Positions 7,348 to 54,749 of a stretch of 64,000 nucleotides of DNA are shown piece by piece. The DNA lies in contig NC_021921.1 of NCBI RefSeq assembly GCF_000470655.1, forward strand, positions 2,743,566-2,807,565, written 5' to 3'. The DNA is from Halorhabdus tiamatea SARL4B (GTDB taxonomy: Archaea > Halobacteriota > Halobacteria > Halobacteriales > Haloarculaceae). Position numbers and translations under genes: made by a program. How positions within the stretch are numbered: position 1 is the stretch's first letter; the number at the start of each line of letters is the position of its first letter. Below the pieces are notes generated by a model, which was not told the DNA's origin, ran no database searches, and saw only the letters and a program-made list of their open reading frames with translations.

Positions 7348-7436
7348 GGCAGGAATCTATTCGCACTCACCGATATACAGGGGCGAATTCTAACCCAACG
7401 GTAGTTTTTTGCCTCTTTCCTGAATGGGATTAAGAT

Positions 7437-8046: not shown

Positions 8047-8050
8047 ACAA

Positions 8051-8422
8051 ATGAGTCAGATTCTTGAATGGGTATTTCAGAAGTCGCAGCTGTTCCGTTC
8101 CTATCCCTTCTGCCACTCACGTCCAGATCGTTCCTTTTGTTACAATGGTCGATATTTTGGACTCTGTGCCCGTTGCACAACGATGTATTTGGGCGGCATT
8201 CTGACTATACTATCCTCCCCAATTTGGTCAATACTCAGCCCGCAATACGCGATTGTATTAGGAGCCATTTCACTAGTTCCAGGGGGGCTTGACGGAACAA
8301 CTCAAATGTTTGGTGATCGGGAAAGTAATAACAGACTGAGAGCAATTACAGGATTTCTCTTAGGTGTCGGAATAGTATTCATTTCTTATGGAGTAGTCAC
8401 ACTTATCACAAACATTGGGTAG
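8051..8422 (+). CDS. DUF2085-like integral membrane protein
   Basis: This 123-residue protein has the hallmarks of DUF2085: a CHSRPDRSF motif near residue 21, then GLCARCTTMYLG, and GGLDGTTQ with RESNNRLR in the second half. Three hydrophobic segments span the rest. The conserved Cys/His residues near the membrane suggest metal binding, but the family has no established role. It is the third gene of a coupled set with the two ribbon proteins, so the three may form a membrane complex; that is inference. The gene is markedly AT-rich. Confidence 0.75.
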   Translation: MSQILEWVFQKSQLFRSYPFCHSRPDRSFCYNGRYFGLCARCTTMYLGGILTILSSPIWSILSPQYAIVLGAISLVPGGLDGTTQMFGDRESNNRLRAITGFLLGVGIVFISYGVVTLITNIG

Positions 8423-9451
8423 TATTTTATCTGATAGGATTTCCCAAACTCTGTTATAGATGTTTCTTTCTCTCTAAGGCTGTCATAGGGCTCTCACGCC
8501 GTTTGATGAATTATACAATGGTTGGCACTCGATTGGCGAACAAATCGATTGTTTCCCTATTCACGGCCCTTAGAATTGACTGTGGGGGCAGTGACGTGGG
8601 GCACAGTTGGTTTGAAATGAGAATAGGATGGTTACCACTTGTTTTCTCAACAAACTTCACAGAACACCACTCACGCCGATATTTGAGGGACTGTAACGAT
8701 CATGATGGTACAGGGGCTTGGGGGTCTCCGTGCAGAGCGACACGACCACTCGGGGATCATCTCCACTACGTTCCGATGCTTTCCCCAACGCTGGGTCGTC
8801 TTCTCTGCTCGACCCCAACAGCATTAGGAAGGCAGGCAACCAACTCAATCGACCCGCAATACCGTGTAATCAGCTGGGGGCCGTCTAACAGAGATTTGAA
8901 GGCATACGTTCGAATGAACGTGATAATCCATATCTCTGTTCTCAACTAGGTAACTGTGACATGGGAGTGAAACAGCGGGTGAACGTCGATTACGAAGTAA
9001 TCGTAAGTGAACCCCGTTGTTGAACGACTACTTACCTGTTGGCGTTACACCCAACTAGTTCTAGTACAAGTATGTATAGTAGGTATCTACGCGCGTAACC
9101 CTCACTCCCCTGCCCCCCATATGATAACATTGTAGGCCAAAGATATGACGTATTAGCCACTCTACTGTTTGATTTTGAGGGGTGGTTTATATCAATAGTT
9201 TACTAATTAATTACAGTATTGTTAGAGTAGTAATTTAACCCCGAAAAAATAGTCTGTTTAGGTATACTACTGCCGAATCATATGTAGTCAGATACTATCA
9301 ATATTCAAATCATTTAAGTATCTCTCGTTACAATGTCTAGATATGTGGGGGAAGTAATGACAGAATGAGTATGCAACTACGAACGGGCAAGTGGTGTCGA
9401 TTGCAAACAACTAATCGCAGTACATCGCCGTGTAGTCAGATATTTCACTCT
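8423..9451. other. Long non-coding AT-rich interval within the element
   Basis: About 1 kb without a convincing gene. It contains a hairpin at 8987-9003 (CGATTAC, GAA loop, GTAATCG), a very AT-rich stretch at about 9170-9345, and at 9133-9166 a motif shared with 10525-10558. These features would suit a replication origin or regulatory region, but no initiator gene is recognised nearby. Confidence 0.5.
9133..9166. repeat. Shared motif, copy 1 (upstream of 9452 gene)
   Basis: Reads TAGGCCAAAGA, five or so variable bases, then GTATTAGC and CTCTACT. Bases 10525-10558 share most positions. Both copies lie upstream of small unknown genes on the + strand, suggesting a common regulator or a replication-associated repeat. 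Confidence 0.55.
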
Positions 9452-12102: not shown

Positions 12103-12729
12103 TTAGACTCGACGGAAGTGATCGTAAATCTGTTCTGTGGTTTGAATACTTCTGTGCCTGAGACGGTTTCTCACATCGTATAGCGTGTTCCCCTCTTCAA
12201 CGTTCATCATGCGATATGCAACGCTGTGACGGAGCGTGTGAGGAGTTACGTTCGAAGGTCCCACAGGTTCGTTTTTCTTCTTTGTCGTTAAGGGACGTAT
12301 CTCACCCACCTCTGCCGCCTTTGAGACGACATTACGGACGGATTCCGTTGTCATCCGTGCCGACTGGCGTGACGGGAATAATGCCTCACTGTCTTTCCAC
12401 CGATTCGAGAGGTATTTCCGTAGGTCCCTGACTGTCGAGTCGGCTAATTCTATTTCTGTGTACGTCGGGGAATTGTCGTTCGGATAATCCTTCTGGATGT
12501 CGGGGGGTAGCCGTATGATCCCGTCATCACAATCAACCATGTCCACGTCGAGAGCAACTACTTCCCCGACACGTAACCCCGTGTCATAGATTAACTCAAT
12601 CAACACGTCGTTCCTGTCGGCCAAGTAGCTGGCAGAGGTTTCGATTGTAGCGTCACGGAGCTTCTCGACTTGCTCAGGTTTCAACCAGTAGGTGGCTGTC
12701 TGAGTTTGGGAATTTGTTGATTCGGGCAT
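12103..12729 (-). CDS. Short tyrosine recombinase (catalytic domain only)
   Basis: 208 residues comprising a complete tyrosine recombinase catalytic domain: R53 in TGLRVGEVV, H164-x-x-R167-H168 in TPHTLRHS, H192 in RLRHRS and nucleophile Y202 in QIYDHF. The usual N-terminal core-binding domain is nearly absent. Short versions of this kind occur in haloarchaeal plasmids and elements. It faces inward from the right end of the element, opposite to the integrase at the left. It may resolve multimers or control excision. Confidence 0.85.
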   Translation of the reverse strand: MPESTNSQTQTATYWLKPEQVEKLRDATIETSASYLADRNDVLIELIYDTGLRVGEVVALDVDMVDCDDGIIRLPPDIQKDYPNDNSPTYTEIELADSTVRDLRKYLSNRWKDSEALFPSRQSARMTTESVRNVVSKAAEVGEIRPLTTKKKNEPVGPSNVTPHTLRHSVAYRMMNVEEGNTLYDVRNRLRHRSIQTTEQIYDHFRRV

Positions 12730-13253: not shown

Positions 13254-13342
<89 letters not shown>

Positions 13343-40246: not shown

Positions 40247-42781
40247 ATGGCAATTGATGATGAAAGTGGTGGGGGCGACACGATTCGGTCGCGGGCCACC
40301 TCGCTGTTCGGGGACAGCGACGACGAACAAACCAACGAGGGCGGTGACGAAGCCGCCTACGACTGGGTCGATTTTCGGCGTGAGTTCCACGACGGGGGAG
40401 CCTTCGACCGGAGCGAGTACCTCGGGTTCGATCCGCATCGAACAGCCGCGATCCTCCAGGAACACGCGAGTGACGCAAAGACGCTGAACACACACTGGCA
40501 GGACTTCGTCGATCCCGAGACCACGCCGGTCGTCAGGGGAACGTATCTTTGGGAACACTTCAAACAGGAATACTACTACGAACCGGACGGGTCAGTCCCG
40601 CGTGACGACGAGGGGGAGCAGATCGATTTCGAGAAGCGCGACCATCTCGGGTTCGAACCCGACGAAATCGAGGGTCGATTGAGTCACGGTCAGAACCTGG
40701 CGGACGAACTCGCGGATTTCGTCGACGAACGGACGGTCGACGTCAACGAGGACCTCGACGAGGACGCGTTCTTCTCGACGGTCGAGGGCCACACGACGGT
40801 GGTCAACCGCTACGACCTCGAGCGGGCCGTCCCGATGGAGAAAAAGCTCCATTTCGAGGAAGTCGAGCGCTACTGGGTCAACAAACCCTACGCCTGCGTC
40901 ATCCTCTTTCACTCGAAAAAGGAGAACGAGCGAAAGTACTACGTCATCGAACCAGCGCTCAACGACATCGAGCGCGAGTTGAAGGACTTCCTTGGGAACA
41001 AGCTCAAGACGGCCATCAAGTACGCGGAAGAGGGGGTCAGCGTCGAGGACGGTGAGGTCGATCGGGCCGGCGTCATCGAACGTGAGGCCCAGGACCTCCT
41101 CGCGCGCTACGACATCTACGAGGAGCCGATCCAAACGGATGCTGGCATGGGTTCGACCGAGTGGCTCAAGGGGCTGGTGGGGATGGACACCGAGACCGAC
41201 GCGATCGAACCGGTCGCGGAGTCGAATGGTCTCGACGGGATCTCGGCGCGACCGGAACCGGCGATCCTCGCGGACGATCCCGACACGCTCAACGAATACC
41301 AGGTCGAGAAGCTGCTTTACTTTCTCAAGCGTGATTACATCGGCTACAGCAAGATCGACCCGATCAAACACGACATCAACGTCGAGGACATCTCGTGTGA
41401 CGGGTACAACTCCCGGGTGTTCGCCTATCACACCGACTACGAGCAGACCATCACCAACGTCGAGCACGGCGAGAGCGACCTCGACGACTTCGTGGTGAAA
41501 CTCGCCCAGCGTTCCGGGAAGGGTATCTCAAAGCGCCAACCGCAGGTCGACGCGACCCTGCCCGACGGCTCGCGTGCCCAGCTCACTCTGGGGCGGGAGG
41601 TCTCCGATCACGGGACCAACTACACGATCCGGCAGTTCAAGGACGTCCCGTTCACGCCGGTGGACCTCATCAACTGGAACACATTCAGCTTAGACGAGAT
41701 GGCGTTCCTCTGGCTCGCGATCGAGAACAACAAGTCGATGATCTTCGCGGGCGGGACGGCGTCGGGGAAGACGACCTCGCTGAACGCGATTTCGCTTTTC
41801 ATCCCCAGCAACGCGAAGATCGTCTCTATCGAAGACACCCGCGAGGTCGAACTCCCACAGCGCAACTGGGTCGCCAGCGTGACCCGTCCGTCCTTCGGGG
41901 AGGACCAGACCGGCGACATCGACGAGTTCGACTTGCTCGAAGCGGCACTCCGTCAGCGTCCGGATTACATCGTCATGGGCGAGGTCCGTGGTGAAGAGGG
42001 GCGTGACCTCTTTCAGGTCATGTCGACCGGTCACACCGGGTACTCGACGTTCCACGCCGACACCGTCGGGGAGGTCATCAAACGGTTCACGACCGATCCA
42101 ATCAACGTTTCGAAGACCCTCTTCACCGCGCTGGATCTCGTGTCGATCCAGACCCAGACCCGGGTACAGGGTCGGAAAGTCCGCCGGAACAAGACCCTGA
42201 CCGAGATCAACGAGTACTCTCCGGAGAACGACGAGATCAACGTCAGGGACGTCTACCAGTGGCAGGCTGAATCCGACGAGTTCCTCCAGATGGGCTCTTC
42301 GAGCACCCTAGAGGAGATCAAGTTCGACCGCGGGTGGGATCAGGACACCCTCGACGAGGAGCTGTTCATGCGGAAAGTGGTCCTCGCGTACCTCATCGAG
42401 CAGGGACTGAACACCTACACCGAGGTGGCAGCGACGCTGCAGGCGTTCATCAACGATCCGAAGACGATCATGACGCTGATCGCCAACGACCAACTCGCAC
42501 ATAGCCTCGAGGATCTCCGGGAGATGGAGTCCGTCCAGATCGAGGTCGACCCGGAAAAGGAGGAGATGGTGCCCCGACCGGACCCGCCAGACGAGTTACT
42601 GACAGAGGCCGAGGACGTCCTCGAGAACGCGACGCCGCTGTTCGACCGGTACAAAGACCAGGCCCGGAGTGACATCGTGAGCGCGCTGGCCGACGACGGG
42701 GTCGATGAAGGGGACGATGAGACCGTCGACTTCGGTCGGTTCGTGCCGAAAGCCGGCTCCGACGGGGTCGAAGAGGCATGA
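40247..42781 (+). CDS. pilB: Type IV pilus assembly ATPase (PilB/FlaI/GspE family)
   Basis: About 844 residues from the ATG at 40247; a GTG six codons earlier is possible. The ATPase powers extrusion of pilins. The long N-terminal acidic domain (to about residue 330) is typical of haloarchaeal PilB3-type enzymes. The secretion ATPase core has Walker A AGGTASGKTTSLN (about 501-510), an Asp box near EDTREVELP, Walker B-like YIVMGEVRGEE (about 573) and a His box (TGHTGYSTFHAD). A TATA-like patch at 40210-40219 fits the ATG at 40247. It overlaps the downstream pilC by four bases. Confidence 0.93.
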   Translation: MAIDDESGGGDTIRSRATSLFGDSDDEQTNEGGDEAAYDWVDFRREFHDGGAFDRSEYLGFDPHRTAAILQEHASDAKTLNTHWQDFVDPETTPVVRGTYLWEHFKQEYYYEPDGSVPRDDEGEQIDFEKRDHLGFEPDEIEGRLSHGQNLADELADFVDERTVDVNEDLDEDAFFSTVEGHTTVVNRYDLERAVPMEKKLHFEEVERYWVNKPYACVILFHSKKENERKYYVIEPALNDIERELKDFLGNKLKTAIKYAEEGVSVEDGEVDRAGVIEREAQDLLARYDIYEEPIQTDAGMGSTEWLKGLVGMDTETDAIEPVAESNGLDGISARPEPAILADDPDTLNEYQVEKLLYFLKRDYIGYSKIDPIKHDINVEDISCDGYNSRVFAYHTDYEQTITNVEHGESDLDDFVVKLAQRSGKGISKRQPQVDATLPDGSRAQLTLGREVSDHGTNYTIRQFKDVPFTPVDLINWNTFSLDEMAFLWLAIENNKSMIFAGGTASGKTTSLNAISLFIPSNAKIVSIEDTREVELPQRNWVASVTRPSFGEDQTGDIDEFDLLEAALRQRPDYIVMGEVRGEEGRDLFQVMSTGHTGYSTFHADTVGEVIKRFTTDPINVSKTLFTALDLVSIQTQTRVQGRKVRRNKTLTEINEYSPENDEINVRDVYQWQAESDEFLQMGSSSTLEEIKFDRGWDQDTLDEELFMRKVVLAYLIEQGLNTYTEVAATLQAFINDPKTIMTLIANDQLAHSLEDLREMESVQIEVDPEKEEMVPRPDPPDELLTEAEDVLENATPLFDRYKDQARSDIVSALADDGVDEGDDETVDFGRFVPKAGSDGVEEA

Positions 42782-44817
42782 GCTTACAGACGCGTCAGGC
42801 AGGGTCGCCGATCGGTGAGGCCGGGGGTCTCGGCGATACGTTTTACCCGTTTTTTCGCCGACTGTTCGACGAGGACGGCGACTTCGTCGCCAACGTCGAG
42901 ACGAAACTGGCGGAAGCCCGCATGGCCGACAACGTCGAGATGTTCCTCTCGCGGGCGCTTGCCGTCGGTACGATCGCCGGCACGTCGCTGTGGCTGGTCG
43001 GCATGTTGCTCGGCTATCTGCTGGTGGCGACGCTGTTCGCCGATCAGATGCCGTCGTTTCTCGGGCTTGGCCTCCCCAGGAGCGTGCTCCCCATCATTCA
43101 GGCGCTAAAGCTCCCGTTCCTGATGGTCGTTTCGGGGCTGTTGTTCGGAACGATCGGGTTCGCTGTCGGGTTCGGGTCGCTGGTCTCGATCCCGTACTTC
43201 CGGGCGAGTGCTCGCGAACGCGAGATCAACGTGATGCTTTCGGACGCCGTCTCCTTTATGTACGCGCTGTCGGTCGGTGGGCTCAATCAACTCGACATCC
43301 TCGAAGCGATCGCGGAAGCCGACGACACGTACGGTGAGGTCGCAAAGGAGTTCCAGAGCATCGTTCTGGAGACGACGTACTTCGATACGGACTACCGGAC
43401 GGCGATCAGAAATCAGGCGATTCAGACACCGAGCGACGAGTTGAGTCAGTTCCTGACGGACATGCTCTCGATCGTCGACTCCGGCGGGGACATGACGTCG
43501 TTCCTCGAGGACCAGAAGAACAAGTACATGCGCACGAGCAAGCAGACCCAGGAGCGCATGCTCGAGACCCTCGAGTTGTTCGGGGAGATGTACATGACGC
43601 TATCGCTGTTCCCGCTGCTGCTCATCATCATCCTCGTCGTGATGAGTATGATGGGCAACGCGAGTACCCAACTCATGTATATTACCGTCTATGGGTTGAT
43701 CCCGATGATCAACGTCGCCTTCCTCGTGTTGGTTTCGACGGTCACTTCAGACGAGAGCAGCGACGGCTTCCTGCTCCCGGACGATCCCAAAAAGCGCGCC
43801 CAGATCGAGGGCGAGACGGACCTCTTCAGCCTCGGTCTGATCGAGCAGTATACGGATGGGTACAACATTTTCGATCGAATCAACGACCGCGAGGGGACTC
43901 ATCAGGTACTAGAGATCCTGAAAGCGCCCCACATTTTCCTTCGGGACAACCCGCCGTACGTGCTCGCGGTGACAATCCCCATCACGCTGGTGGCGTTGAT
44001 GGTTGCCGTGGTGGTGGGATGGGCACCGACGTCTCTTGGGGGGATGCAATCCGATCCGCTTCAGGGGACGTTCTTCTGGCTGTACATGCCGGCCTACATC
44101 AACTTCATTCCGTTGTCGATCTTCCACGAGTGGAACGTCCGCTACCGCCGCTCGATCATCGGCAAACTCTCGGAGAACCTCCGGAAACTCTCGAGTGCCA
44201 ACGAGACGGGGATGACGCTGCTCGAATCGCTTGACATCGTCGCCCAGACGTCCTCGGGACGCCTCGCAGACGAGTTTTCGGTCATGCACCGGAAGGTCAA
44301 CTACGGGACGAACCTCAAACAGGCCCTCCGGGAGTTCAACAACAAGTATCATGTCCCACGTCTCAGCCGAATCGTCAAGCTCATCAGTGAGGCGCAGGAG
44401 GCCTCCAACCAGATCCAGGACGTCCTCTCGACGGCCGCCCAGGCCAGCGAGAACCAGGACGACATCGAACGCGATCGGAAGTCACGGACGCGGATGCAAG
44501 TCGTCATCATCATCATGACGTTCATGACGCTTTTGGGCGTCATCGCCATGCTCAAAGTGCAGTTCTTCGAGACGATGGCCGGCCTCTCGAGTCAGGCCTC
44601 GGGTTCCAGCGGGGCGATGGGCGGCCAGAGCTTCGGGTCGAACATGCCAGGCAACGACATGCTGTCGATGCTGTTCTTCCATGCCGTCTCGTTGCAGGCC
44701 ATCTTCTCGGCCGTCATCGCCGGATACATCAGGAACGTTCGGATCATCTCCGGACTGAAGTACGCGGTCGCGTTGATGACCGTGTCTCTCGTGGTGTGGA
44801 TTGCCGTCGGGGGATAG
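42778..44817 (+). CDS. pilC: Type IV pilus platform membrane protein (PilC/TadC-like)
   Basis: 679 residues. Two T2SF-type cytoplasmic domains are separated and flanked by membrane helices (about nine hydrophobic segments). In type IV pili this protein forms the inner-membrane platform on the ATPase. The layout with two repeats is the haloarchaeal PilC3 form. ATGA overlap with pilB shows co-translation. It converges with the pilin-like operon on the minus strand, ending 25 bases from its last stop. The regulated partner pilins are likely those neighbours. Confidence 0.9.
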   Translation: MSLQTRQAGSPIGEAGGLGDTFYPFFRRLFDEDGDFVANVETKLAEARMADNVEMFLSRALAVGTIAGTSLWLVGMLLGYLLVATLFADQMPSFLGLGLPRSVLPIIQALKLPFLMVVSGLLFGTIGFAVGFGSLVSIPYFRASAREREINVMLSDAVSFMYALSVGGLNQLDILEAIAEADDTYGEVAKEFQSIVLETTYFDTDYRTAIRNQAIQTPSDELSQFLTDMLSIVDSGGDMTSFLEDQKNKYMRTSKQTQERMLETLELFGEMYMTLSLFPLLLIIILVVMSMMGNASTQLMYITVYGLIPMINVAFLVLVSTVTSDESSDGFLLPDDPKKRAQIEGETDLFSLGLIEQYTDGYNIFDRINDREGTHQVLEILKAPHIFLRDNPPYVLAVTIPITLVALMVAVVVGWAPTSLGGMQSDPLQGTFFWLYMPAYINFIPLSIFHEWNVRYRRSIIGKLSENLRKLSSANETGMTLLESLDIVAQTSSGRLADEFSVMHRKVNYGTNLKQALREFNNKYHVPRLSRIVKLISEAQEASNQIQDVLSTAAQASENQDDIERDRKSRTRMQVVIIIMTFMTLLGVIAMLKVQFFETMAGLSSQASGSSGAMGGQSFGSNMPGNDMLSMLFFHAVSLQAIFSAVIAGYIRNVRIISGLKYAVALMTVSLVVWIAVGG

Positions 44818-44842
44818 CCAGTTCCGAACCCTTCCGCGATGA

Positions 44843-45709
44843 CTACTCCATCGGATAACTGAGTTCGATCGTGACGACCCGTATCAACACATCGTCGTTA
44901 TTTTCGCAGACTCCTTTCGTGTCTCCGGTATTCCAACTCCAGCCGTCGGCATTCTCGAAGAATTGCTTCCACTGCTCGGGATGGGCCGTCTTCGAGACGT
45001 CGAGTTCGATATCGAGGTCGACACTGGGATCACGACGGTGGATCCGGTCCTGATCGACGAGTTCAGCCTCGAACGTGGCGTATTCGTTGTTCGGAGCGAA
45101 CGGAACCGAATCAGGGACGTTTGACGGCTGGATCGCGTATTCATTGCTGAAGACACCCGTCTCGTAAATCGACTCGTCCGTTGTCAGGTTGACGAGTGAC
45201 ACGATTGTGGTCTCATCGGGCGAACATGTGATCGAGGGACTGTACCGCGGCGTGGCGTAGTCAGTCCGGAAGACGCCGCCACCTTCGTAGGCGATCTGTA
45301 CTGTGCGGTCGGATCGCTCAAAGCGGGTTTCTAAGGCTCCAATCGAAACCTCGGCAGTATTGGCGGTTCCGCTGATGGCGCGTAGGTCCACCTGGGAACT
45401 TTCGATCGTGATGTTTGTCCGGTTGAAGAAGAGGTGTCCGTCGCCCGGAGAGATATCGAACTGCCGGTACGCGTCCCCACTTCGATGAATCTCATCCAGT
45501 GTTGAGGCGACAGCCTGTGTGCCACGATCGTTATTCTGGATGTGTTGGGTGCCGGCGAGGTCGACGAGTGACCCGACGGCGAACATAGAGACGAGCGAGA
45601 CGCTGACGATGATGATCGAGAAGGTGAGCGTGAACGCGACGACGTCGGAGAGCGCCCGCTCATCGAGTGGTTTCCCCGCAACGACCGTGGTGGGGAGGTA
45701 CTGCTTCAT
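44843..45709 (-). CDS. Pilin-like secreted protein, last gene of the operon
   Basis: About 288 residues from the ATG at 45709, which overlaps the preceding stop by one base. The N terminus, DERALSDVVAFTLTFSIII, has a short charged leader then a long hydrophobic helix, the pattern of archaeal class III (type IV pilin) signals; the giant protein at 48616 has a similar DERSVSEILG motif. The rest is an extracellular beta-rich region with N-glycosylation sequons and several cysteines. It is likely a minor pilin-like subunit handled by PilB/PilC. Confidence 0.75.
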   Translation of the reverse strand: MKQYLPTTVVAGKPLDERALSDVVAFTLTFSIIIVSVSLVSMFAVGSLVDLAGTQHIQNNDRGTQAVASTLDEIHRSGDAYRQFDISPGDGHLFFNRTNITIESSQVDLRAISGTANTAEVSIGALETRFERSDRTVQIAYEGGGVFRTDYATPRYSPSITCSPDETTIVSLVNLTTDESIYETGVFSNEYAIQPSNVPDSVPFAPNNEYATFEAELVDQDRIHRRDPSVDLDIELDVSKTAHPEQWKQFFENADGWSWNTGDTKGVCENNDDVLIRVVTIELSYPME

Positions 45710-46206
45710 CAGGAGCACCCCCCAAGCGTGATCGATCCATCACAAAGCGAGATGGTGATCTCCGGGCCCGAATCCTGTGCCGGATCGATACCGGCCTTGG
45801 TTTCGAGTTCGCGAGTGATGGACTGATCGAGACGAGGGACACGCACCTCGAGAACCGCCGGATCACCATTCCCGCGAAGATCAACCTGGTAATTATACGA
45901 TCCCATGATGCGGTCTGGATAGCTCAGCGTTACGTTGAGGCTGGCGGCCTCACCGTTCGCTGCGAGGCGATCGACCGTGTTGATGTGGGATAGTATGTCT
46001 CCGTTGATCTCCGAGACCTGATCGTGACTGATACGCTCCTCCTGACTGTCGAGCAGTGCGCCCGACGCATTGAGCAAGCCTATCAACAGCACACCCGTAA
46101 TCGCGATGGTGAGCCCGTGTGTGATTGCGACCGACACACCACGGGTATCTCCAGTGAAGGACTCGGATCGTCGGTCGAACGACGGCCATCCTGACCAGTC
46201 CCTCAT
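45709..46206 (-). CDS. Pilin-like protein
   Basis: 165 residues. A hydrophilic leader ends in TRGVSVAITHGLTIAITG, starting a hydrophobic helix (about residues 24-46) like archaeal pilin N termini. The remainder is extracellular and ends with a Cys-containing strand. I recall similar haloarchaeal families carrying DUF72xx labels but cannot assign one with certainty. It shares a four-base overlap with the upstream gene. Confidence 0.72.
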   Translation of the reverse strand: MRDWSGWPSFDRRSESFTGDTRGVSVAITHGLTIAITGVLLIGLLNASGALLDSQEERISHDQVSEINGDILSHINTVDRLAANGEAASLNVTLSYPDRIMGSYNYQVDLRGNGDPAVLEVRVPRLDQSITRELETKAGIDPAQDSGPEITISLCDGSITLGGCS

Positions 46207-47099
46207 GATCCGCTCACCTCGAATAGCGTGAACTGCGTTTCGTACGTGACGCTTGGATCTGCCGTCCTGACGATGAACGTCGGATTGAGGTCCATGCCTG
46301 CATCGTCAACACACGGGACGGATCCAGATCCACATGTGGCCCCCTCGGCAGATATTTCGATGGTCGAACCCACGGACGTGGAGCTGTCGTGGAGCGTTAC
46401 GTTGTTGAAGTCGCCGAAGTCGACGTTGGCATTGCCATAGAAATCGTCTACTGTCCTGATTTCACCGGTGCCATTGTGGAAATCCACCTGGACAAAGCTA
46501 CTGGTGTTGAACGTGTGGATGTCACTGCCGTTAAATTCGACGCTGGTACTCGTCACGTTCAGGAACCGGCTCGTGTTCGTGTCTGTGTCGTTGAATTCGA
46601 GTGTGAGGTCGGTGGTTGCGTTCAGCGAAACCAGCGGTGCCTTCCCATCTGCATCTTCCAGGAGCGTTTCACTGCCGCTCAATGACATACTTCCACTCCC
46701 GCTGTAATACGTGAGCGCACCCTCCACGGCAGCACTGTGGTTATACGTGACGTTGACGACCATCGCCCGATCGGTGCTGGCGAGATCGTTGTACTCGGTT
46801 TCGATGCTTTTGACGACGCTTTTAAGATGGGTCTGATCGGCGTACGCGAGTCGATTATCGTTCGTTGTCATTTCGCTGGCATTCGCGGCAAGGAACGCGG
46901 TTCGGAGTTCGTCACGGAGCTCTGTCGCACTTCGATCGGTATCCGCAAGACCCGATGCGTCAGAACGAACGGTGACGTCAGGTGAGGTATGGACAGTGTT
47001 GAGCAGGACCACACTGGCGAGTACTGTCAGGGCGATCATGAGTGCGGCAATCACGACAAGTTGTCCTCGGTCGCCTCCGGGACCGCCCCTGGTTACCAT
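46203..47099 (-). CDS. Pilin-like protein with long Thr/Ser/Asn-rich ectodomain
   Basis: 298 residues. GGDRGQLVVIAALMIALTVL near the N terminus is a short charged leader plus hydrophobic helix, resembling haloarchaeal pilin-like families (DUF7261 by memory). The ectodomain is rich in D, N, S, T and carries many N-x-S/T sequons, so heavy glycosylation is likely. It overlaps the upstream gene by seven bases and the downstream one by four. The role as a minor pilin or surface subunit is inferred from motif and context. Confidence 0.73.
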   Translation of the reverse strand: MVTRGGPGGDRGQLVVIAALMIALTVLASVVLLNTVHTSPDVTVRSDASGLADTDRSATELRDELRTAFLAANASEMTTNDNRLAYADQTHLKSVVKSIETEYNDLASTDRAMVVNVTYNHSAAVEGALTYYSGSGSMSLSGSETLLEDADGKAPLVSLNATTDLTLEFNDTDTNTSRFLNVTSTSVEFNGSDIHTFNTSSFVQVDFHNGTGEIRTVDDFYGNANVDFGDFNNVTLHDSSTSVGSTIEISAEGATCGSGSVPCVDDAGMDLNPTFIVRTADPSVTYETQFTLFEVSGS

Positions 47100-47665
47100 A
47101 CGATCACCCGGAGTTTGACCATGCCGTAGACCTCACTGTCCGTGTCGTGATCCTCGATATAGAACTCGTCGCTACTGGCGTTTTCGAGTGTCGTCCCTGT
47201 TGGCACACACGTCTCACCGCTTCGAACCTGATCCGTATCGTACATCACAACCTGTTCCGTCACTGTTCCTGTCGCGCGCTGCGGTGCCGACCGACTCATC
47301 AACGATTTGGTCCGGACAACTCCGCTGGCGTTGATGAACTCAAGCTCAATAGTGTACGTGCCACGATTCTCGAGTGTCTCGTCCAGCAACGCTCCGAATG
47401 CCGTGTCGGGTGGATCACCGGGGCTCAGCATCGCCGGTTCGCCATCGCTGTCGACGCAGGCTACCGTCGAGTGAATGCGGTCGTCTTCTCGGGCGATATG
47501 CATGACGTCGGCCGCTTGGGTTTCGATTTCCGCAAGATGTCCACCGGCGTTGCTCGCTGGTGTCACGTCGACGATCTGCATCCCCAAGATGAGGGCGATT
47601 CCGATAATGAGTACCCCGATAACCCCTTCGAGGGCGTAAGCTTGCCCCCTCGTAGTCCCCTTCAT
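47093..47665 (-). CDS. Pilin-like protein
   Basis: 190 residues. The N terminus TTRGQAYALEGVIGVLIIGI matches haloarchaeal small pilin-like proteins (DUF7288 by memory): a leader of a few residues, R-G-Q, then a hydrophobic helix. A soluble ectodomain of about 150 residues contains two cysteines. It is coupled to both neighbours (1-base gap upstream, 7-base overlap downstream). Confidence 0.75.
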   Translation of the reverse strand: MKGTTRGQAYALEGVIGVLIIGIALILGMQIVDVTPASNAGGHLAEIETQAADVMHIAREDDRIHSTVACVDSDGEPAMLSPGDPPDTAFGALLDETLENRGTYTIELEFINASGVVRTKSLMSRSAPQRATGTVTEQVVMYDTDQVRSGETCVPTGTTLENASSDEFYIEDHDTDSEVYGMVKLRVIVW

Positions 47666-47666
47666 A

Positions 47667-48113
47667 TTACCACACCCGGACGACTAGGTCACAGGCAGTT
47701 GTACAGTTGTCGAGATTCCCTGCCTGGGTTGTTCGGACGGTCCGGACACTGCTAGCGAGTGGTTTTCCGGACGGCTCGGACGGCCCCCCGCTCGCTTCGA
47801 TCGTTCCGGATCTACGTAGCGTGAGGTTGACTTTGCGCAAGTCTGGGACGCCACTTCGGTCTTTAAGCTCTGCCAGGTACTTGGCCGTGAATGTTCCAGT
47901 ACTCACGTTGAGGGTCCGCTCTCCAGTGGTCGTAGCATTCGTCTCGATGACCTCGGCCGCAAGCTGGTCGGCCATCTTGTCCTGATCGCTCGATACCGGA
48001 TCGAAGAACGGATCGAACACCTGTGGAAACAGCCAGAAGACAGCCGTTATCGCGATCAGGAGGAGCGATATCCCGAGCAGATAGTCGTAGGTCGTTTGAC
48101 CACGTACACTCAT
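47667..48113 (-). CDS. Pilin-like protein, first of the operon
   Basis: About 148 residues from the ATG at 48113. The N terminus SVRGQTTYDYLLGISLLLIA is a short R-G-Q leader and hydrophobic helix, typical of haloarchaeal pilin-like proteins (DUF7287 by memory). The frame stays open upstream to 48560, through the MITE-like repeat, but that part lacks pilin character, so the ATG at 48113 is preferred. The one-base spacing to the next gene makes this the first cistron of the five-gene operon. Confidence 0.75.
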   Translation of the reverse strand: MSVRGQTTYDYLLGISLLLIAITAVFWLFPQVFDPFFDPVSSDQDKMADQLAAEVIETNATTTGERTLNVSTGTFTAKYLAELKDRSGVPDLRKVNLTLRRSGTIEASGGPSEPSGKPLASSVRTVRTTQAGNLDNCTTACDLVVRVW

Positions 48114-48133
48114 GTATTCCCTACCGTTGATTG

Positions 48134-48213
48134 ATACTGCCGGCTGTAACAACCCGACGGAATTCCCCACCACGGGGCGACAGATCTGTTTGCGAACTCG
48201 CCACCGGTAGTAC
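48134..48213. mobile_element. MITE-like inverted-repeat element, copy B (degenerate)
   Basis: Begins ATACTGCCGGCTGTAA like copy C at 54510. The right end, near GAACTCGCCACCGGTAGTAC, is a decayed version of copy C's right end. The centre also shares GGAATTC and CCACCAC-type sequence. It sits directly upstream of the pilin-operon start codon. Confidence 0.65.
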
Positions 48214-48565
48214 GAGGGCACACTCTCGGTCCGTTCGACGTTTTCATCCTCTCCGTGCCCCGCTGATTCGGTTGCTTCTTCAATTGTTGTACGTTCACGT
48301 GATCCATTCCCCTCGATGCGTGACGACGCCAGCATCTCGCTGGATCCGGATGGGCCCATCGACGTAGCCTTTCCATCTCGATATCCGGAATCCCCCTCGG
48401 AGTCCGTGTCACGTATATGCGTGTCAATACGGCGACTCCATACTTTAATCCTCCCATCGATCGTTGCTTCGTTCTCGTACTGCCGTTCTGCACTTGATAC
48501 CCCAATACGGCTCATCACTGCCTTATTAAATCTCTCCACAGTTGTCTGAATAAAATACACATCTG

Positions 48566-48575
48566 GTTATATAGA
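48566..48575 (-). promoter_or_regulatory. TATA-like promoter reading toward the pilin operon
   Basis: On the minus strand this is TCTATATAAC. The predicted start of transcription is near 48545, giving about 430 bases of leader before the ATG at 48113 unless the upstream frame is translated. Confidence 0.5.
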
Positions 48576-48579
48576 TAAC

Positions 48580-48589
48580 GTTTATATCC
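48580..48589 (+). promoter_or_regulatory. TATA-like promoter of the giant adhesin gene
   Basis: GTTTATATCC is about 31 bases upstream of the ATG at 48616, the leaderless spacing. It is back to back with the minus-strand promoter at 48566-48575, so the two units may be co-regulated. Confidence 0.6.
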
Positions 48590-48615
48590 TTACAAGGCGT
48601 ACAATTTTAATCAAT

Positions 48616-51600
48616 ATGGGGAATCGGACAACAAGGGGACAGTACGACGAGATCTGTGCTGACGAGCGAAGTGTTTCGGAGATCCTCGGGACGATTCTGA
48701 TATTTTCGTTCGTGATTTTCCTGGCGGTCGGTCTGATCGTGATCGGGTTACACGCTTTCGAGGGGGCGACAGCCCAGACCGAGGACCGTCTCGCACAGGA
48801 CTCGATGCAGGAGATGGGAAATCGCTTGCATTCACTGACAGGCAGTCAGATCGATACCGCAACCGAGTTCGAATTTCCGACCGGGACTGGGGACGATATC
48901 AAAGCACTCGACGAGGGGACTGTAAATGTCAGTATTAAGACCGATCCAGATTATGTTGGACTCGTAGAAGCCAGCAACCAAAGCAATTACACAAGGATCG
49001 ATCTCGGCACCATCGAGCACGAAGCGGCGGACGGCACCGTAACTGCCTATCAAGGGGGTGCACTGTTCGAAAAGCAGGGGGATCTCATCGAGATTGTCCA
49101 GGAACCGACGTTCGATTACAGGGGAGAGGTGGTCGATCTATCGTTCCGATCGGTAAATCTCTCTCAGATGTCGGATTCGGAGTCTATCACGGCAAAACGC
49201 CTGCTCGAGAAGTCCGCGAATCAGTCCGAACAGATTCGGGAGATGATGCGCCCGCACTGGAATCTGACAGGCTATAGCGACATCATGGCACCGGTCACGA
49301 TCAAAGTCACGATCGAAAGTGAGTACGCCGATGCCTGGCAGATGTACGCCGAAAATCGGATGACTGAGACGCCTACTGTCAATCGGATTAGTTCGAACGA
49401 AGTCGAGATCGTCTTCGACAAGTTCGACGGCGGCTTCACGTTAACGAATCAGACGTTCGACGACGGCGTCTTCTATTCCGGAGAGGCAGCATTGACTGGG
49501 CTGGTCAACGTCTCGAACGCGACGATCGATGGTTTGGGCGGGAAAGTTAACGTGTCTTCTATCAAGGGATCCGGGGCAGGAAGCCCCGTTCCACAGTCAC
49601 AGTATATGTTAGGAATCTACGATGACGGCTTCGACGAATGGCTAATCTACGATACGAGCGGATCTGGGCGATGGTTTAACCTCACCGGTAGTCCAGTCAC
49701 TCCGAGTGCAACCAACGGTGCTGTCACCTCCCTCAATAACGATACCTACCCGATCGACCCGAAAGAAACCTTGACCTGCGTCGTGGAAAGGGACCCCTCT
49801 GGTGGCCCTGACCACGAACAGTTCGTCGACTACGTCGATGCGCCTAACGAAGGCTGTTTGGCAGATCCGCTGGCCAGAAACGTCCCGAAAAACGCCACCG
49901 TCAATCCACATTTCAACGTGTCCTTCGATGACGTCAGGTTGGCCGGGCCGAAGAATATCACCACTGACGACGTCGTCGCCGGACAGGACAAGATCGAGCT
50001 CGAATGGACAGTCGAAAACGACTACGTCAGCAACGGAACGACGCCCGTCGTTCTCCTCTTCAGTGAGGACGGTTCGAGTAACTGGATCCCACTCGATAAA
50101 ACGGACGTCTATCTGGATGGGTATGGTGACAGTAAACCGGGTAGTTTCCAGGTCAACGCGACGGGGAGTAGCAATGTCACGTTCCAGGTGGTCACGCTGG
50201 ATACGAACGACAAGTACGGCCCGGTCGACATCGTCAAACGACCGGAGCGCGGGAAATTCCAGATCGACAGCCTCTCTGTCCCCGATTCGGATCTCACCGC
50301 CGGCGATGATCTCCAGGCCGACGTCGAGATCACCAACACCGCGGCAATCAACGACACCCAGCTGGTCGAGTTACAGTTCGACGACAACAGTGGGAGTGGT
50401 CCGGCGCCAGTCGCCTGGAAGAAAGTGAGCATGAACGCCGGAACGACGAAGACGGTTTCGATCAACTGGACGACCACGAACGCTTTCAACACGTCCAGCG
50501 GCGAGGTGATCGCCGAGACGTATCACGACACTGCATCGGAGAGCCCCATCGAGATCGACAAGGGGATGGCCGCGAACGCGACGTTCGAGGTCGCCATCGA
50601 CAATATCAACCCGAGTCCCATCTGGGACGGCGATTCGGTTACCGTCGACGCGACCGTCGAGAACGTCGGCAGCCAGGCGACCGAGCAGGACATCGCGTTG
50701 CTTGCGGACGGCAAGGTCGTGGACGCGGTACTCGACGAGAATCTCTCGAGTGGCGCGTCAACGACAATGTCCTTCCCGTGGGACAGTACCGGTCACGGTG
50801 GACAAACCGTTGACCTGACCGTGGCAAGCGCGGACGATACCGTGACTCAGCCCGTCACTGTTCAAACGCCAACGCCCACTGACTTCGACGTCAACATCGA
50901 CGAGGTCCGTGTCGACGGTGTGCCTGGCGGTGCGGTGGATCCCGGAAACTCCACGGTGACCGTCGAGGCGACGGTCTCGAACAGCGGCGATAGCGACGCA
51001 CCGACGGTCTGGCTCAACGGCTTCGAGGACAGGGTCGTCGCCGTTGACGACACTGTTCAGACGATCGGACTGCGATCTGGTGATCCGAGTAGCACCAGCG
51101 TGACGTTGCAGTGGAACGTCCCGGCGGACGTCAACACGTCAGATACGGAGATCGAGATCGCGGTCGACGGCGACAGTGAGACGCGAGAGCTCGATATCGA
51201 ATCACGACTGGTGGTCGAGAATATTCAGACGTCGAAGAATACGGCCCAACAAGCTACGTTTACTAATATTTACGTTACTGATAATTCATACGATTGGAGT
51301 CAGCAACCAAGCTCTTTCTCGGTCGATTATAATGTAAACCCTGCAAGTGGGTTCGATCATGTATCATTTGTGTTTGACGGGGCATATAGTTATACGTCAA
51401 AGGATATTCAAAATTCGACCAGTACGACCGGAACTCTGTCTCATTCTCAATCTTACGGGTGGTGGCAGGACTATACGATCACTGGTCGGATCATCGATGA
51501 CGGTAACGTGATCGAAAAAGAGACCTTCAACGTTCTAGCTGACGGGAACGATCGGAACGTCAATGTTTCGGGGGCCAATGTAGTCACCGAATCCGTCGAC

Positions 51601-54240
51601 GTCCAAGCGTACCTCAAGAACATCGGTGACACGACAGCATCCGGACCCGTTGAACTAAAAGACCCCTCCGGCTCAGGTGAGGACACCGCCTACGTCAGTG
51701 GTCTTCCCGGCGGCCAGATGACGATGGTCGACATGACGTGGAACGATCCGACTCGAACGGGTTCGGTGACGGTCGCGACACCCGATGATCAGGCGTCCGA
51801 ACGCGTGGTCATCAAGCGAGACGGACCTGATTGTTCAAACGTGATTTGGACGACAGATTCACAGGGTCGGTACGAAATCAGCAACGTCGACCAATTGCAG
51901 TGTATTCCACAGAACGGTCTCGATGAAGACTACAAACTCGTTGACGATATCGACGCGACTGGCACAAAATATTGGAACAACGGGAAGGGATTCGAGCCGA
52001 TCGGCGATCAGTCTCGAGGTGGTGCCGAGTTCGAGGGCGACTTCGACGGTCAGGGACACAAAATAGAGAACCTCTACATCGACCGTCCGAACGAAAACTT
52101 CGTCGGTCTGTTCGCTGTCGTCCATGACTTCGATGCTGCGAGTTACGTCGGGAGCGGCTCAACGATCGAAAACCTCCGTTTAGAGGGTGTTGACATCCAC
52201 GGGCAGCAGGTCACTGGGGGTGTTGCGGGCGCTACCGGTGGCATCATCGAAAACACCCGAGTCGAAGGTAGAGTCGAAGCCGAATATCAGGAAGTCGGTG
52301 GAATCGTGGGGTCCACCCACAATGCAGACCTGGACAACAGGTTAGTCGTTGATGGCGAAGTCATCGGTGGTATTCCGGCTGGTGCTGTCAACGGGGTTAG
52401 CCATCCCTGGAATGATCGAAATCTCGGAATCGGCGGTATAGTCGGATCGACTGGTTACAACACTGAAGTCTCGACCGTGTACTCCCTCGCGGACGTCAAA
52501 GGTGCGTTCAGCGTCGGCGGTATCGTTGGGTGGACCTCGGACTACGCTAGCGACAACCGGCAGATGTACTGGGCCGGTGACGACATTGTCGTAACTGCGA
52601 CGCAGTCGGAGATCGACGGCTATCTTAATGACCTCGGCCGGACCTCGTACGGGACCGCTACTGGCGGAGCGATTTTCGGCCGGGGTGATGACAACCAGGA
52701 CACGTTCCAAAATAGCGTCTACTACAATAATCAGCATCACCCGTATGGCCTGGGAGAGCACGTCATTGAAGATCAGATCGACATCAACGATCGGACGACT
52801 GACGAGATGATGGGTCTCGGCGTTACCGACCGGGGTAACATGTCAAATCTAGATTACAATGACGAGGGCGGACCCTGGGTCGCGATTCCGGGCGAGTACC
52901 CGCGTTTCCAGTGGGAACTCGAAGCCGAAGGTCGCGTCGGTGTCGACATCGACGAGAGCAGTCTCAATTCCGTCGAGGCTGGCGACCCCTTGGACGTTCC
53001 AGTAACGGTCACGAACAGCAACTACGAAGAGGTCACACAGACGATCCGGCTGTTCGCCGACGGAACTCCGGTCGACAGCACGGAGGTGACGGTTGACGCC
53101 CGGGATCTGGGAGACCCACCCGAAAGCAAGTACCTCTCCAGTGCGCTGACCTGGAATACGAAATCCGACGACGATGGCACGGTACAACTCGAAGTCCGCA
53201 GTGAGGACGCGATCGATACGGAAACGGTCACGATACAGACACCGACGACGGGTGACTACACCGTCGACAGTATCAGTACTACCGGTCCGACGACTGCCGG
53301 CGATGTGCTCACCGTCTACGCTGACATCAACTACACCGGATCGAGTCCCGCCCCCTCTGAACTCGTCACACTGCAGAATTTCGACGGAGGCGTGGTCGAT
53401 AGCAAGAATATCTCTAACGACTGGACCAATTTGCCACTCGAATGGGACACCAGCGAGGGCTTGGTCTCGAGCGGGGCCATCACCGACGATATCACTGTCG
53501 GGACGAGTGACGATTTGGAGACGGAAGAGGTCACGATCCAGGCAGCGGGCGACGGTGACTTCCAGATTCAGAACCTCACCGCGAACGATCCGGTCACGGA
53601 AGGCGATGCGTTAAATATCACCGCCACTGTTGAGAATGTCGGCTCGAAAAACGGAACCCAGAATCTCCTGTTGCGGGACCACGGGGACAGTCCAGTCGAC
53701 ATCACGTCCGTGTCGCTGGATCCGGGCGATTCGACGACCGTCACGCTCACCTGGAACACGGCCGTCGGCGACAACGGTCAGGACGATGTCACCGTGACCA
53801 CCATGGACGACACTGAGACGAAGAATGTGAAAATAGAAGAACAACCCGAGGAGCAACTCGATGTGGTTGTCAAAGAGGTACGTTACAACGGCTCGCAGAT
53901 CTCCAATGGGACGACCGTCGAGGCGGGAGCAACCCTCGAAGCCGACGTCGCAGTCAGCAACGCAACCCAGCCAGTCACGAAGCCGGTGTGGCTCGAGTTC
54001 GCTGGTGAAACGGTCGCGTTCAACTCCGGCGTGACTGTCAATGCGAATTCGAGCCACACCGTGACCCTGACGTGGAACGTTCACGAAGCGATGAATGGTT
54101 CCGATTTGGTGGCGAAGACAGCCCACGATAGTGATCTCTTCGACCTGACGATCGAACCCGTCCGGACGTCGACGATGCCGTTGACGACACCCGGCGGGGA
54201 GCCGATAGACGTCGACCTCGATAAACTCGCAATCGGATAA
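48616..54240 (+). CDS. Giant pilin-type-anchored surface protein (CARDB-like and GLUG domains)
   Basis: 1,874 residues. The N terminus DERSVSEILGTILIFSFVIF (residues 17-36) has the leader and hydrophobic helix of haloarchaeal pilin-like proteins (DUF7289 by memory). Beta-rich ectodomains follow: CARDB-like repeats at about 545-655, 655-755 and 756-860; a divergent AT-rich module at about 866-1070; a GLUG-type beta-helix at about 1073-1435 (KLVDDIDATG, FEGDFDGQGHKIENLYIDRP, repeated VGGIVG); then four more CARDB-like repeats to 1860. There is no C-terminal membrane helix or sorting motif, so the N-terminal helix is the only visible anchor. Many N-glycosylation sequons are present. It may be an adhesin exported by the adjacent PilB/PilC machinery. 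Confidence 0.85.
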   Translation: MGNRTTRGQYDEICADERSVSEILGTILIFSFVIFLAVGLIVIGLHAFEGATAQTEDRLAQDSMQEMGNRLHSLTGSQIDTATEFEFPTGTGDDIKALDEGTVNVSIKTDPDYVGLVEASNQSNYTRIDLGTIEHEAADGTVTAYQGGALFEKQGDLIEIVQEPTFDYRGEVVDLSFRSVNLSQMSDSESITAKRLLEKSANQSEQIREMMRPHWNLTGYSDIMAPVTIKVTIESEYADAWQMYAENRMTETPTVNRISSNEVEIVFDKFDGGFTLTNQTFDDGVFYSGEAALTGLVNVSNATIDGLGGKVNVSSIKGSGAGSPVPQSQYMLGIYDDGFDEWLIYDTSGSGRWFNLTGSPVTPSATNGAVTSLNNDTYPIDPKETLTCVVERDPSGGPDHEQFVDYVDAPNEGCLADPLARNVPKNATVNPHFNVSFDDVRLAGPKNITTDDVVAGQDKIELEWTVENDYVSNGTTPVVLLFSEDGSSNWIPLDKTDVYLDGYGDSKPGSFQVNATGSSNVTFQVVTLDTNDKYGPVDIVKRPERGKFQIDSLSVPDSDLTAGDDLQADVEITNTAAINDTQLVELQFDDNSGSGPAPVAWKKVSMNAGTTKTVSINWTTTNAFNTSSGEVIAETYHDTASESPIEIDKGMAANATFEVAIDNINPSPIWDGDSVTVDATVENVGSQATEQDIALLADGKVVDAVLDENLSSGASTTMSFPWDSTGHGGQTVDLTVASADDTVTQPVTVQTPTPTDFDVNIDEVRVDGVPGGAVDPGNSTVTVEATVSNSGDSDAPTVWLNGFEDRVVAVDDTVQTIGLRSGDPSSTSVTLQWNVPADVNTSDTEIEIAVDGDSETRELDIESRLVVENIQTSKNTAQQATFTNIYVTDNSYDWSQQPSSFSVDYNVNPASGFDHVSFVFDGAYSYTSKDIQNSTSTTGTLSHSQSYGWWQDYTITGRIIDDGNVIEKETFNVLADGNDRNVNVSGANVVTESVDVQAYLKNIGDTTASGPVELKDPSGSGEDTAYVSGLPGGQMTMVDMTWNDPTRTGSVTVATPDDQASERVVIKRDGPDCSNVIWTTDSQGRYEISNVDQLQCIPQNGLDEDYKLVDDIDATGTKYWNNGKGFEPIGDQSRGGAEFEGDFDGQGHKIENLYIDRPNENFVGLFAVVHDFDAASYVGSGSTIENLRLEGVDIHGQQVTGGVAGATGGIIENTRVEGRVEAEYQEVGGIVGSTHNADLDNRLVVDGEVIGGIPAGAVNGVSHPWNDRNLGIGGIVGSTGYNTEVSTVYSLADVKGAFSVGGIVGWTSDYASDNRQMYWAGDDIVVTATQSEIDGYLNDLGRTSYGTATGGAIFGRGDDNQDTFQNSVYYNNQHHPYGLGEHVIEDQIDINDRTTDEMMGLGVTDRGNMSNLDYNDEGGPWVAIPGEYPRFQWELEAEGRVGVDIDESSLNSVEAGDPLDVPVTVTNSNYEEVTQTIRLFADGTPVDSTEVTVDARDLGDPPESKYLSSALTWNTKSDDDGTVQLEVRSEDAIDTETVTIQTPTTGDYTVDSISTTGPTTAGDVLTVYADINYTGSSPAPSELVTLQNFDGGVVDSKNISNDWTNLPLEWDTSEGLVSSGAITDDITVGTSDDLETEEVTIQAAGDGDFQIQNLTANDPVTEGDALNITATVENVGSKNGTQNLLLRDHGDSPVDITSVSLDPGDSTTVTLTWNTAVGDNGQDDVTVTTMDDTETKNVKIEEQPEEQLDVVVKEVRYNGSQISNGTTVEAGATLEADVAVSNATQPVTKPVWLEFAGETVAFNSGVTVNANSSHTVTLTWNVHEAMNGSDLVAKTAHDSDLFDLTIEPVRTSTMPLTTPGGEPIDVDLDKLAIG

Positions 54241-54434
54241 CCCGCTCATCTGGCACCTCCGCTGGCCCGACGGGCGTCAGGCGAGTCAAATCGACCAGTG
54301 TCCCCCAGAACTCACGTCCAGTCGGTCTCCGAGCGGGCGTCCGGAACCGCTCCCGGTACTCGTCGAGTCCGTGGTGTGGCGTCCGCTTCGGTCGCGTGCG
54401 CATCGTCGTACTATCCAGTCGCTCTCTTTCGAGC

Positions 54435-54472
54435 TTCCAAGCGGGTGTCCACTTTGTCGCACCCGCTTGGAA
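54435..54472. terminator. 13-base perfect hairpin
   Basis: TTCCAAGCGGGTG at 54435-54447 pairs exactly with CACCCGCTTGGAA at 54460-54472 across a 12-base loop. It lies about 195 bases past the giant gene's stop. It could terminate that transcript or be a stray repeat; no clear T-run follows. Confidence 0.45.
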
Positions 54473-54509
54473 ACACCAGCAGACGCCTCGCACTGCTCGG
54501 CGTCTCCTG

Positions 54510-54589
54510 ATACTGCCGGCTGTAACAGACTGAAGGAATTCGCCACCCCGGTGTGGCGTATATCTTTACGAACTTACAGCCGGCAGTAT
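54510..54589. mobile_element. MITE-like inverted-repeat element, copy C (intact)
   Basis: Perfect 16-base terminal inverted repeats: ATACTGCCGGCTGTAA (54510-54525) and its reverse complement (54574-54589). The interior is short and non-coding with an internal CGCCAC/GTGGCG dyad. It is the best-preserved member of the family also at 48134 and 27000. Confidence 0.75.
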
Positions 54590-54749
54590 GAGCCTCCGCG
54601 TTCGCGTGTCTTTGACACGCTTCACGCGGAAACACCGATAGACTCCTTCGAGAGGTCGTCGTCTATCGAGCTTCGCCGTTCGCATGCTAATCGCATGCTC
54701 ACGGCGAAACACTACCCTTTTACCACGCCTACCGGTAGGAACGCATATC

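Follow-up and report, generated by a model that had tools for sequence, protein, structure and literature searches.

In the genome of Halorhabdus tiamatea SARL4B, a stretch of 64,000 nucleotides (contig NC_021921.1, positions 2,743,566 to 2,807,565 of the forward strand; hereafter the window, in whose numbering coordinates are given) contains a locus with pilB and pilC, five small pilin genes and a divergent gene coding for a giant protein. We propose, with a probability of about 0.7, that this locus encodes a PilB4-type type IV pilus in which the giant is a sixth, modular pilin, probably located at the tip, and that the pilin set was exchanged as a unit. The system as such is known; its new features are a modular pilin of giant size and a clean exchange in which pilins and giant changed while the motor remained constant.

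Genes of the locus

An initial annotation of this DNA had described pilBC, five pilins and a divergent giant, and this observation is confirmed. The genes are the following (the slash in a leader marks the presumed cut):

40247 (or 40229, from a GTG) to 42781, plus strand: pilB, assembly ATPase (Pfam T2SSE, 1.1e-30), with a PilB3_C-like tail and a long N-terminal region
42778 to 44817, plus strand: pilC, membrane platform with two T2SSF stretches (Pfam T2SSF, 1.1e-30)
44843 to 45718, minus strand: DUF7289 minor pilin, leader RA/LSDVV (Pfam 1.1e-29); an internal ATG at 45709 is an alternative start
45709 to 46206, minus strand: DUF7266 minor pilin, leader RG/VSVA (Pfam 2.1e-9, above cut-off)
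46203 to 47099, minus strand: DUF7261 minor pilin, leader RG/QLVV (Pfam 1.4e-9, above cut-off)
47093 to 47665, minus strand: DUF7288 minor pilin, leader RG/QAYA (Pfam 1.5e-37)
47667 to 48113 (corrected), minus strand: DUF7287 minor pilin, leader RG/QTTY, starting at M150 of a 297-codon frame
48616 to 54240, plus strand: giant modular pilin, 1,874 aa (Pfam CARDB, 1.8e-19)

As had been noted, pilB and pilC overlap through ATGA, pilB ending at 42781 and pilC beginning at 42778; the pilB product is 89% identical in the Halorhabdus relatives G088 and G050. The five minus-strand genes are indeed tightly coupled, with junctions of +1 (47667/47665), -7 (47099/47093), -4 (46206/46203) and about -1 to -10 (45718, or the internal ATG at 45709, against 45709), and the translations of all five show the RG or RA leader followed by a hydrophobic helix. 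In addition, all five match their Pfam families (DUF7287, DUF7288, DUF7261, DUF7266 and DUF7289) above the cut-offs. The open reading frame of DUF7287 extends from 47667 to 48560, and a start at 48560 was rejected: the Pfam match begins at residue 153 and the G050 homologue aligns from residue 150, so that the start is most likely M150, at 48113. The divergent gap therefore measures about 500 bp instead of 55 bp.

The giant as a sixth prepilin

The giant is divided as follows:

48616 to 49425 (aa 1-270), plus strand: pilin module, with leader ERS/VSEILG, helix 18-74 and beta domain 81-267 (AlphaFold2, family alignment)
49903 to 51585 (about aa 430-990), plus strand: CARDB/Ig-like repeats, block 1 (Pfam; the first repeat matches 3idu)
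51589 to 53250 (aa 992-1545), plus strand: GLUG-type module, common to other long pilins
53251 to 54180 (about aa 1546-1855), plus strand: CARDB/Ig-like repeats, block 2 (Pfam; repeat matches)
54202 to 54240, plus strand: conserved C-terminal strand PIDVDLDKLAIG and stop codon, with the highest score among 1,863 windows (leave-one-out motif test)

Judged by its sequence, the giant is a sixth prepilin with a class III leader and a DUF7289-like module. Its N-terminus, ERS/VSEILGTILIFSF, fits the leaders of long prepilins found at other loci, and an hhalign comparison with the small DUF7289 protein gave a probability of 97.5 (E 7e-12) over about 170 residues. It thus appears as a paralogue of DUF7289, and not as a separate adhesin beside the pilins, as first suggested. 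In the AlphaFold2 model of the giant we observed a 57-residue helix (18-74), the beta domain (81-267), a weak linker and a CARDB-like domain (430-540), and an alignment of 25 long-prepilin modules revealed a common YQGGG(V/L)W-like motif. When the sequence profile of the pilin module was compared with the PDB, three chains were matched at E<=1; all three are archaeal type IV pilins, the matches being weak (E 0.014-0.17) and limited to the helix region. The giant combines an N-terminal class III signal and a pilin helix with a module that is not peculiar to pili (CARDB, above the cut-off). The Pfam GLUG match is slightly below the cut-off; the GLUG-type module is probably a beta-helix.

At their other end, the giants share a short terminal strand with the pattern PIDVDxxxIxIG. 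In a leave-one-out motif test, the C-terminal window scores best in 18 of the 20 distinct giants (at least 1,000 aa), including the giant of the window. A motif derived from 53 shorter pilins finds the window-type strand poorly, the G050 representative ranking 103 of 2,256. For these tests, truncated copies and C-termini that were nearly identical were removed, which brought the 101 long pilins down to 73 and left 20 giants; the combined p-values take related proteins as independent. In the model of the long pilin of H. amylolytica, the last 12 residues form a strand with good confidence (block means 72-89). The shared terminal strand suggests that the modules of the giants may be inserted ahead of the final strand of the pilin fold.

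Exchange of the pilin set

We observed that the PilC of the window shares 93% identity with that of G088 and 91% with that of G050, and only 62-66% with those of four Halovenus loci. The pilins of the window are 24-35% identical to those of G088, G144 and G198 and 30-53% to those of the four Halovenus loci. In the PilC tree the window lies inside Halorhabdus; in the tree of the cassette, made of four of the five pilins joined (DUF7261 excluded), the window and G050 lie inside Halovenus, with supports of 99/99 with G229 and 96/96 with G116 and G218. Approximately unbiased (AU) tests reject the forced alternative placements (p 1e-7 for the cassette, 9e-52 for PilC). The other five Halorhabdus in the tree have a different cassette, with a long pilin of 739-794 aa.

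The boundaries of the exchange are visible at the DNA level. Blastn blocks end at 44816 for G088, at the stop codon of pilC, and at 44801 for G144, and restart at 54411-54669. For G088, similarity resumes at 54411, ahead of the gene for EF-2 (protein 97% identical). The segment concerned can be described as follows:

44818 to 54410, no strand: replaced segment with the pilin cassette and the giant, in which blastn shows no DNA similarity to G088 or G144

In addition, the GC content at third codon positions (GC3) of the five pilin genes and the giant gene is 0.65-0.72, that of most neighbours being 0.77-0.87. In Halovenus, the order is pilBC>five pilins>giant> on a single strand; the five-gene block is inverted in the window and in G050, and G050 carries an additional cassette, of a third type, beyond the giant. 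Trees, identities, DNA boundaries and GC3 together indicate that the pilin set and the giant entered as a unit from a Halovenus-like donor and that the native motor was kept. A passage of PMC6491452 reports that PilB3-C3 rescues a PilB1-C1 deletion, which is partial evidence that motors serve other pilin sets.

No remnant of a native cassette was seen beside the giant. We also rejected a phase inversion of the cassette, the inverted repeats at its ends being short and few and both genomes with the inverted order having the same orientation, as well as the idea that G050 keeps its native cassette alongside the new one, its second cassette grouping elsewhere in the tree. Separately, cassette stacking is seen at L101, L056 and L057 (G050), with two cassette types around the giant and another elsewhere on the chromosome. 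At L058 (G139), pilC is found in two frames (238 and 440 aa; 6411-8440), which points to a sequencing error or a disrupted gene.

Conservation in Halobacteria and assignment to the PilB4 type

Makarova et al. 2016 (PMC4858521) described that a PilB3 locus encodes no pilins whereas a PilB4 locus has its own set, that motor and pilin set evolve independently, and that PilB4-type loci contain a minor pilin of variable length, arCOG02911 (about 250-550 aa), which we infer to be DUF7289. In their classification, the PilB4-type euryarchaeal type IV pilus is the second branch of Clade 2. In the window, a VirB11-like ATPase gene overlaps a TadC/T2SSF gene, and the locus has its own prepilin set, with five Pfam cassette families adjoining pilC. 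The locus, which contains the giant and five prepilins, is not of the PilB3/PilA kind, in which the pilBC locus is without pilins. The comparison with PilB3/PilC3 made in the initial annotation is therefore not retained, and the locus fits the known PilB4 kind among the type IV pilus loci of haloarchaea. Passages of earlier studies report that pilB4/pilC4 is expressed in H. volcanii, where a pilus of two relatively large pilins was suggested (PMC4371748), and that the expression of pilB4-pilC4 in H. gibbonsii drops under virus infection (PMC12542753).

DUF7288 is present in 138 of the 145 sampled genomes of the class Halobacteria, and H. volcanii, used as control, was matched too. The five-pilin set to which it belongs is thus nearly universal in the class, and the idea of a self-contained special island does not hold in general; what sets this locus apart is rather the joint swap of pilins and giant next to a pilBC pair that stayed native. 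We mapped 138 stretches (the window, three further groups of 40, 2 and 16 stretches, and 79 named loci, with some mutual duplicates), of which 118 have both PilC and the cassette, with 104 distinct PilC C-termini. PilC and the cassette share a strand in 116/138 and lie on opposite strands in 2/138 (the window and G050); the remaining 20/138 do not contain both. The cassette genes adjoin pilBC in most mapped loci, including Haloferax L147 (full) and L143 (partial, at a contig end). The common order is pilB>pilC>DUF7287>DUF7288>DUF7261>DUF7266>DUF7289>, in many cases with a long prepilin after it, mostly convergent. Our own hidden Markov models for DUF7266, DUF7289 and the N-terminus of the giant ran together into one superfamily, and genes of these three types were therefore assigned by order and strand. 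In relatives, pairs of neighbouring cassettes recur (L071, L074, L075, L113, L136 and L173), and a long prepilin lies either next to the pair or between its two members.

Long prepilins and their modules

A DUF7288 call was obtained at all but six of the 79 named loci. Among these 73, 38 have a long prepilin of at least 400 aa (41 proteins, 466-2,082 aa); the filters used (hydrophobicity, and a motif excluding the DUF7266 slot) dropped some long frames, for example at L132 and L150. Overall, the relatives of the giant range from 466 to 2,267 aa and carry differing modules on the same pilin base. The giant of G050 (2,267 aa) has CARDB and a weak GLUG match, like that of the window. Among the Halorhabdus relatives, the long pilins of G088, H. 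salina and H. amylolytica have a vWA domain; that of G235 has vWA and TSP3 repeats. The long pilin of Halovenus carboxidivorans (2,082 aa) has CARDB, vWA and PPC, that of G219 has CARDB, vWA and a weak CBM match, and that of Haloferax marinum has DUF7308. The modelled H. amylolytica long pilin matches 62 chains at E<=0.001; these include S. sanguinis PilB, a modular pilin (E 3e-6), and SpaC, a pilus adhesin, both matched via vWA, and the top match is an unrelated vWA protein. In native Halorhabdus cassettes (L058, L060, L062, L115 and L116), we also noticed that the pilin in the DUF7266 slot is enlarged (443-583 aa).

The nearest relatives of the GLUG module outside Halorhabdus are in G142 and G104 (58-59% identity). 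In these two and in G046, G033 and G077, that is, in five of the six best other genomes (G032 was left out), the module is borne by stand-alone prepilins of 1,185-1,359 aa with pilin N-termini (L233-L237; genomes of other families). No PilB, PilC, DUF7287, DUF7288 or DUF7261 match was found around these five genes in the 12 kb fetched for each.

Judging by titles and abstracts, the papers found on modular pilins are bacterial. In listings and excerpts of the open-access literature on modular pilins, archaeal pilins and adhesins, and CARDB, we found no description of such archaeal giants, and the open-access literature gave no paper on the DUF names of the pilin cassette.

Proposed mechanism and alternative explanations

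The sequence shows the gene content, the pilin module of the giant, its module composition, its relatives and the exchange. On this basis we infer a mechanism in which the prepilin peptidase PibD would cleave the class III leaders of all six pilins, and the five small pilins would start or cap the filament as an initiating or tip complex, while PilB, the ATPase, and PilC, the membrane platform, would add subunits to it. The helix of the giant would become part of the filament core, leaving about 1,600 residues, with the CARDB stalk and the GLUG-type module, on display outside. Because the subunit is so bulky, the tip is its most likely place, and there it would attach to another cell, a surface or a polymer. 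The five pilins and the giant of the Halovenus-like donor would have taken the place of the native set, which lay between pilC and the gene for EF-2. Thus, a dedicated pilus with its own pilins and with the giant as tip or effector, as put forward in the initial annotation, remains the best reading; a foreign adhesin standing beside the pilins does not.

Several observations weigh against this proposal. The confidence of the AlphaFold2 model of the giant is moderate (mean pLDDT 65.3, pTM 0.47), and structure comparison matched its CARDB part only (3idu, aa 426-539, Z 8.9), so that the pilin fold is unsupported by structure comparison. The Pfam DUF7289 model remains below threshold on the giant itself, and in its leader a serine, not G or A, precedes the presumed cut (ERS/VSEI); the RS residues are also present in G050, G229, L057 and L093. 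As for the exchange, the aminotransferase gene ahead of pilB also has a low GC3 (0.694), and the placement of the donor rests on a tree of fast-evolving pilins. The five small pilins may build the filament itself instead of a complex at its tip. Finally, 35 of the 73 named loci show no long prepilin nearby (some are contig ends, many are Natrialbaceae-type genomes), so the giant is not essential to the system. The absence of the giant from conserved pilBC loci, one part of what the initial annotation would have taken as refuting its proposal, is thus found at about half of them, contig ends included.

The giant could also act independently of a pilus, as a pilin-anchored membrane surface protein (S-layer-like or stalk) whose CARDB stalk spans the S-layer. 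CARDB stalks are typical of surface proteins, and all five GLUG-module relatives described above stand alone. In addition, a passage of PMC4371748 states that membrane pilins by themselves may give some adhesion. We nevertheless hold this explanation to be unlikely, since the long prepilin here has the position and the transfer history of the cassette as well as a pilin-type leader and helix, and since PilB3 pili, too, ordinarily have their pilins encoded as stand-alone genes (PMC4858521). A secretion pseudopilus similar to the type II secretion system, in which the five pilins and PilBC would form the piston and the giant the tip or the cargo, seems very unlikely: the locus gave no match to a gene specific to secretion, halophilic archaea are single-membraned and the modules are binding-type domains. 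The resemblance of the GspH-K tip set to five small pilins and one large tip pilin speaks in its favour. GspK is discussed as a large tip minor pilin in a passage of PMC8179133.

Another explanation dispenses with the exchange, the pilins having diverged fast within Halorhabdus and grouping with Halovenus by chance or through long-branch effects. Surface pilins do evolve fast (66-79% identity between the window and G050, against 91% for PilC), but the well-supported nesting in Halovenus, the AU test of the cassette and the sharp DNA boundaries to G088 make this highly improbable, and within the model used it is already rejected by these tests.

Going beyond the modular tip pilin proposed here, and with the odds somewhat against it, the complete tip (five minor pilins and giant) could be a plug-in that is traded between genera like serotype cassettes and docks on the resident PilBC. 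Interchangeable binding modules (vWA, CARDB, GLUG or TSP3) would be inserted between the pilin module at the start and the conserved final strand, as a loop of about 2,000 residues at most. The final strand would close the pilin fold and so pin this loop at the tip.

Divergent region, repeats and neighbouring DNA

The region between the divergent genes and the repeats near it are as follows:

48114 to 48615, no strand: divergent control region of about 500 bp, with conserved blocks in the alignment with G050
48132 to 48216, no strand: 85-nt palindromic genome repeat, copy 1, 18 bp before the DUF7287 start
54508 to 54592, no strand: 85-nt palindromic genome repeat, copy 2, directly beyond the giant

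A TTTATAT box (48581-48587) lies shortly upstream of the ATG of the giant (48616). A scan of the region for sigma-70-type promoters gave no excess over shuffles, as expected in an archaeon.

Among 20 genomes searched, the core of the 85-nt repeat has 19 copies in this genome, 37 in G069 and 1 in G139, and was not found in the remaining 17; the repeat has the look of a mobile element of the non-autonomous kind. G050 carries the same giant but lacks copy 1 at the corresponding site, and this copy therefore probably arrived after the giant. The idea that the two repeats are transposition ends of the giant was rejected, given that the repeat is dispersed in the genome and that copy 1 is missing in G050. 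Elsewhere in the window, the low-GC segment 6241-12729, with phage-type integrases at 6241-7347 (plus strand) and 12103-12729 (minus strand), near a tRNA-Leu at 13258, is probably an integrated element.

Comparison with known systems

With the PilB4-type pilus (PMC4858521), the locus has in common its own pilin set and a minor pilin of variable length. It differs in that one pilin carries non-pilus modules and is 1,874 aa long and in that the cassette is inverted relative to pilBC; here, moreover, an exchange is resolved to one locus and to a named donor-like genus. The adhesion pili of H. volcanii (PilB3/PilC3-PilA) use the same ATPase/TadC superfamily, and the PilB3_C Pfam match in the window is slightly above the cut-off, but the PilB3 loci of H. 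volcanii are without pilins, the PilA pilins being encoded elsewhere (PMC4858521).

In the bacterial modular pilins, as described in parts of the reports on S. sanguinis PilB (Raynaud et al. 2021, PMC8179133) and PilC (PMC9934059), an N-terminal class III leader and a pilin module are followed by functional modules, and the same is seen here. Among these modules, vWA also occurs in relatives of the giant, and a passage of PMC8179133 likewise argues for a tip position from bulk. In contrast, the giants belong to an archaeal pilin family: the likeness is one of architecture, and no homology of the pilin modules is shown. The archaeal giants reach 2,267 aa, compared to a bacterial extreme of 860 aa reported in the PMC8179133 survey, and their shared C-terminal strand suggests a possible insertion of modules before the end of the pilin fold. 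By analogy, the giants are probably the archaeal counterpart of the bacterial modular pilins, probably located at the tip. The PilY1/PilC tip adhesin of Pseudomonas and Neisseria, with its minor-pilin priming complex, is likewise a large binding protein on small minor pilins. According to a passage of PMC8179133, PilY1 is a non-pilin with a C-terminal beta-propeller; the giant has a prepilin leader, and no PilY1 beta-propeller match was found in it with Pfam.

The giant is a concrete candidate for the ligand-binding part of haloarchaeal PilB4-type pili, and it places modular pilins in archaea, at sizes above those of the bacterial survey. The same motor with two unrelated pilin sets in sister species constitutes a natural experiment. 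Because these species share the motor (93% identity in PilC) and have unrelated pilin sets, the compatibility of motor and pilins and the choice of ligand are directly testable.
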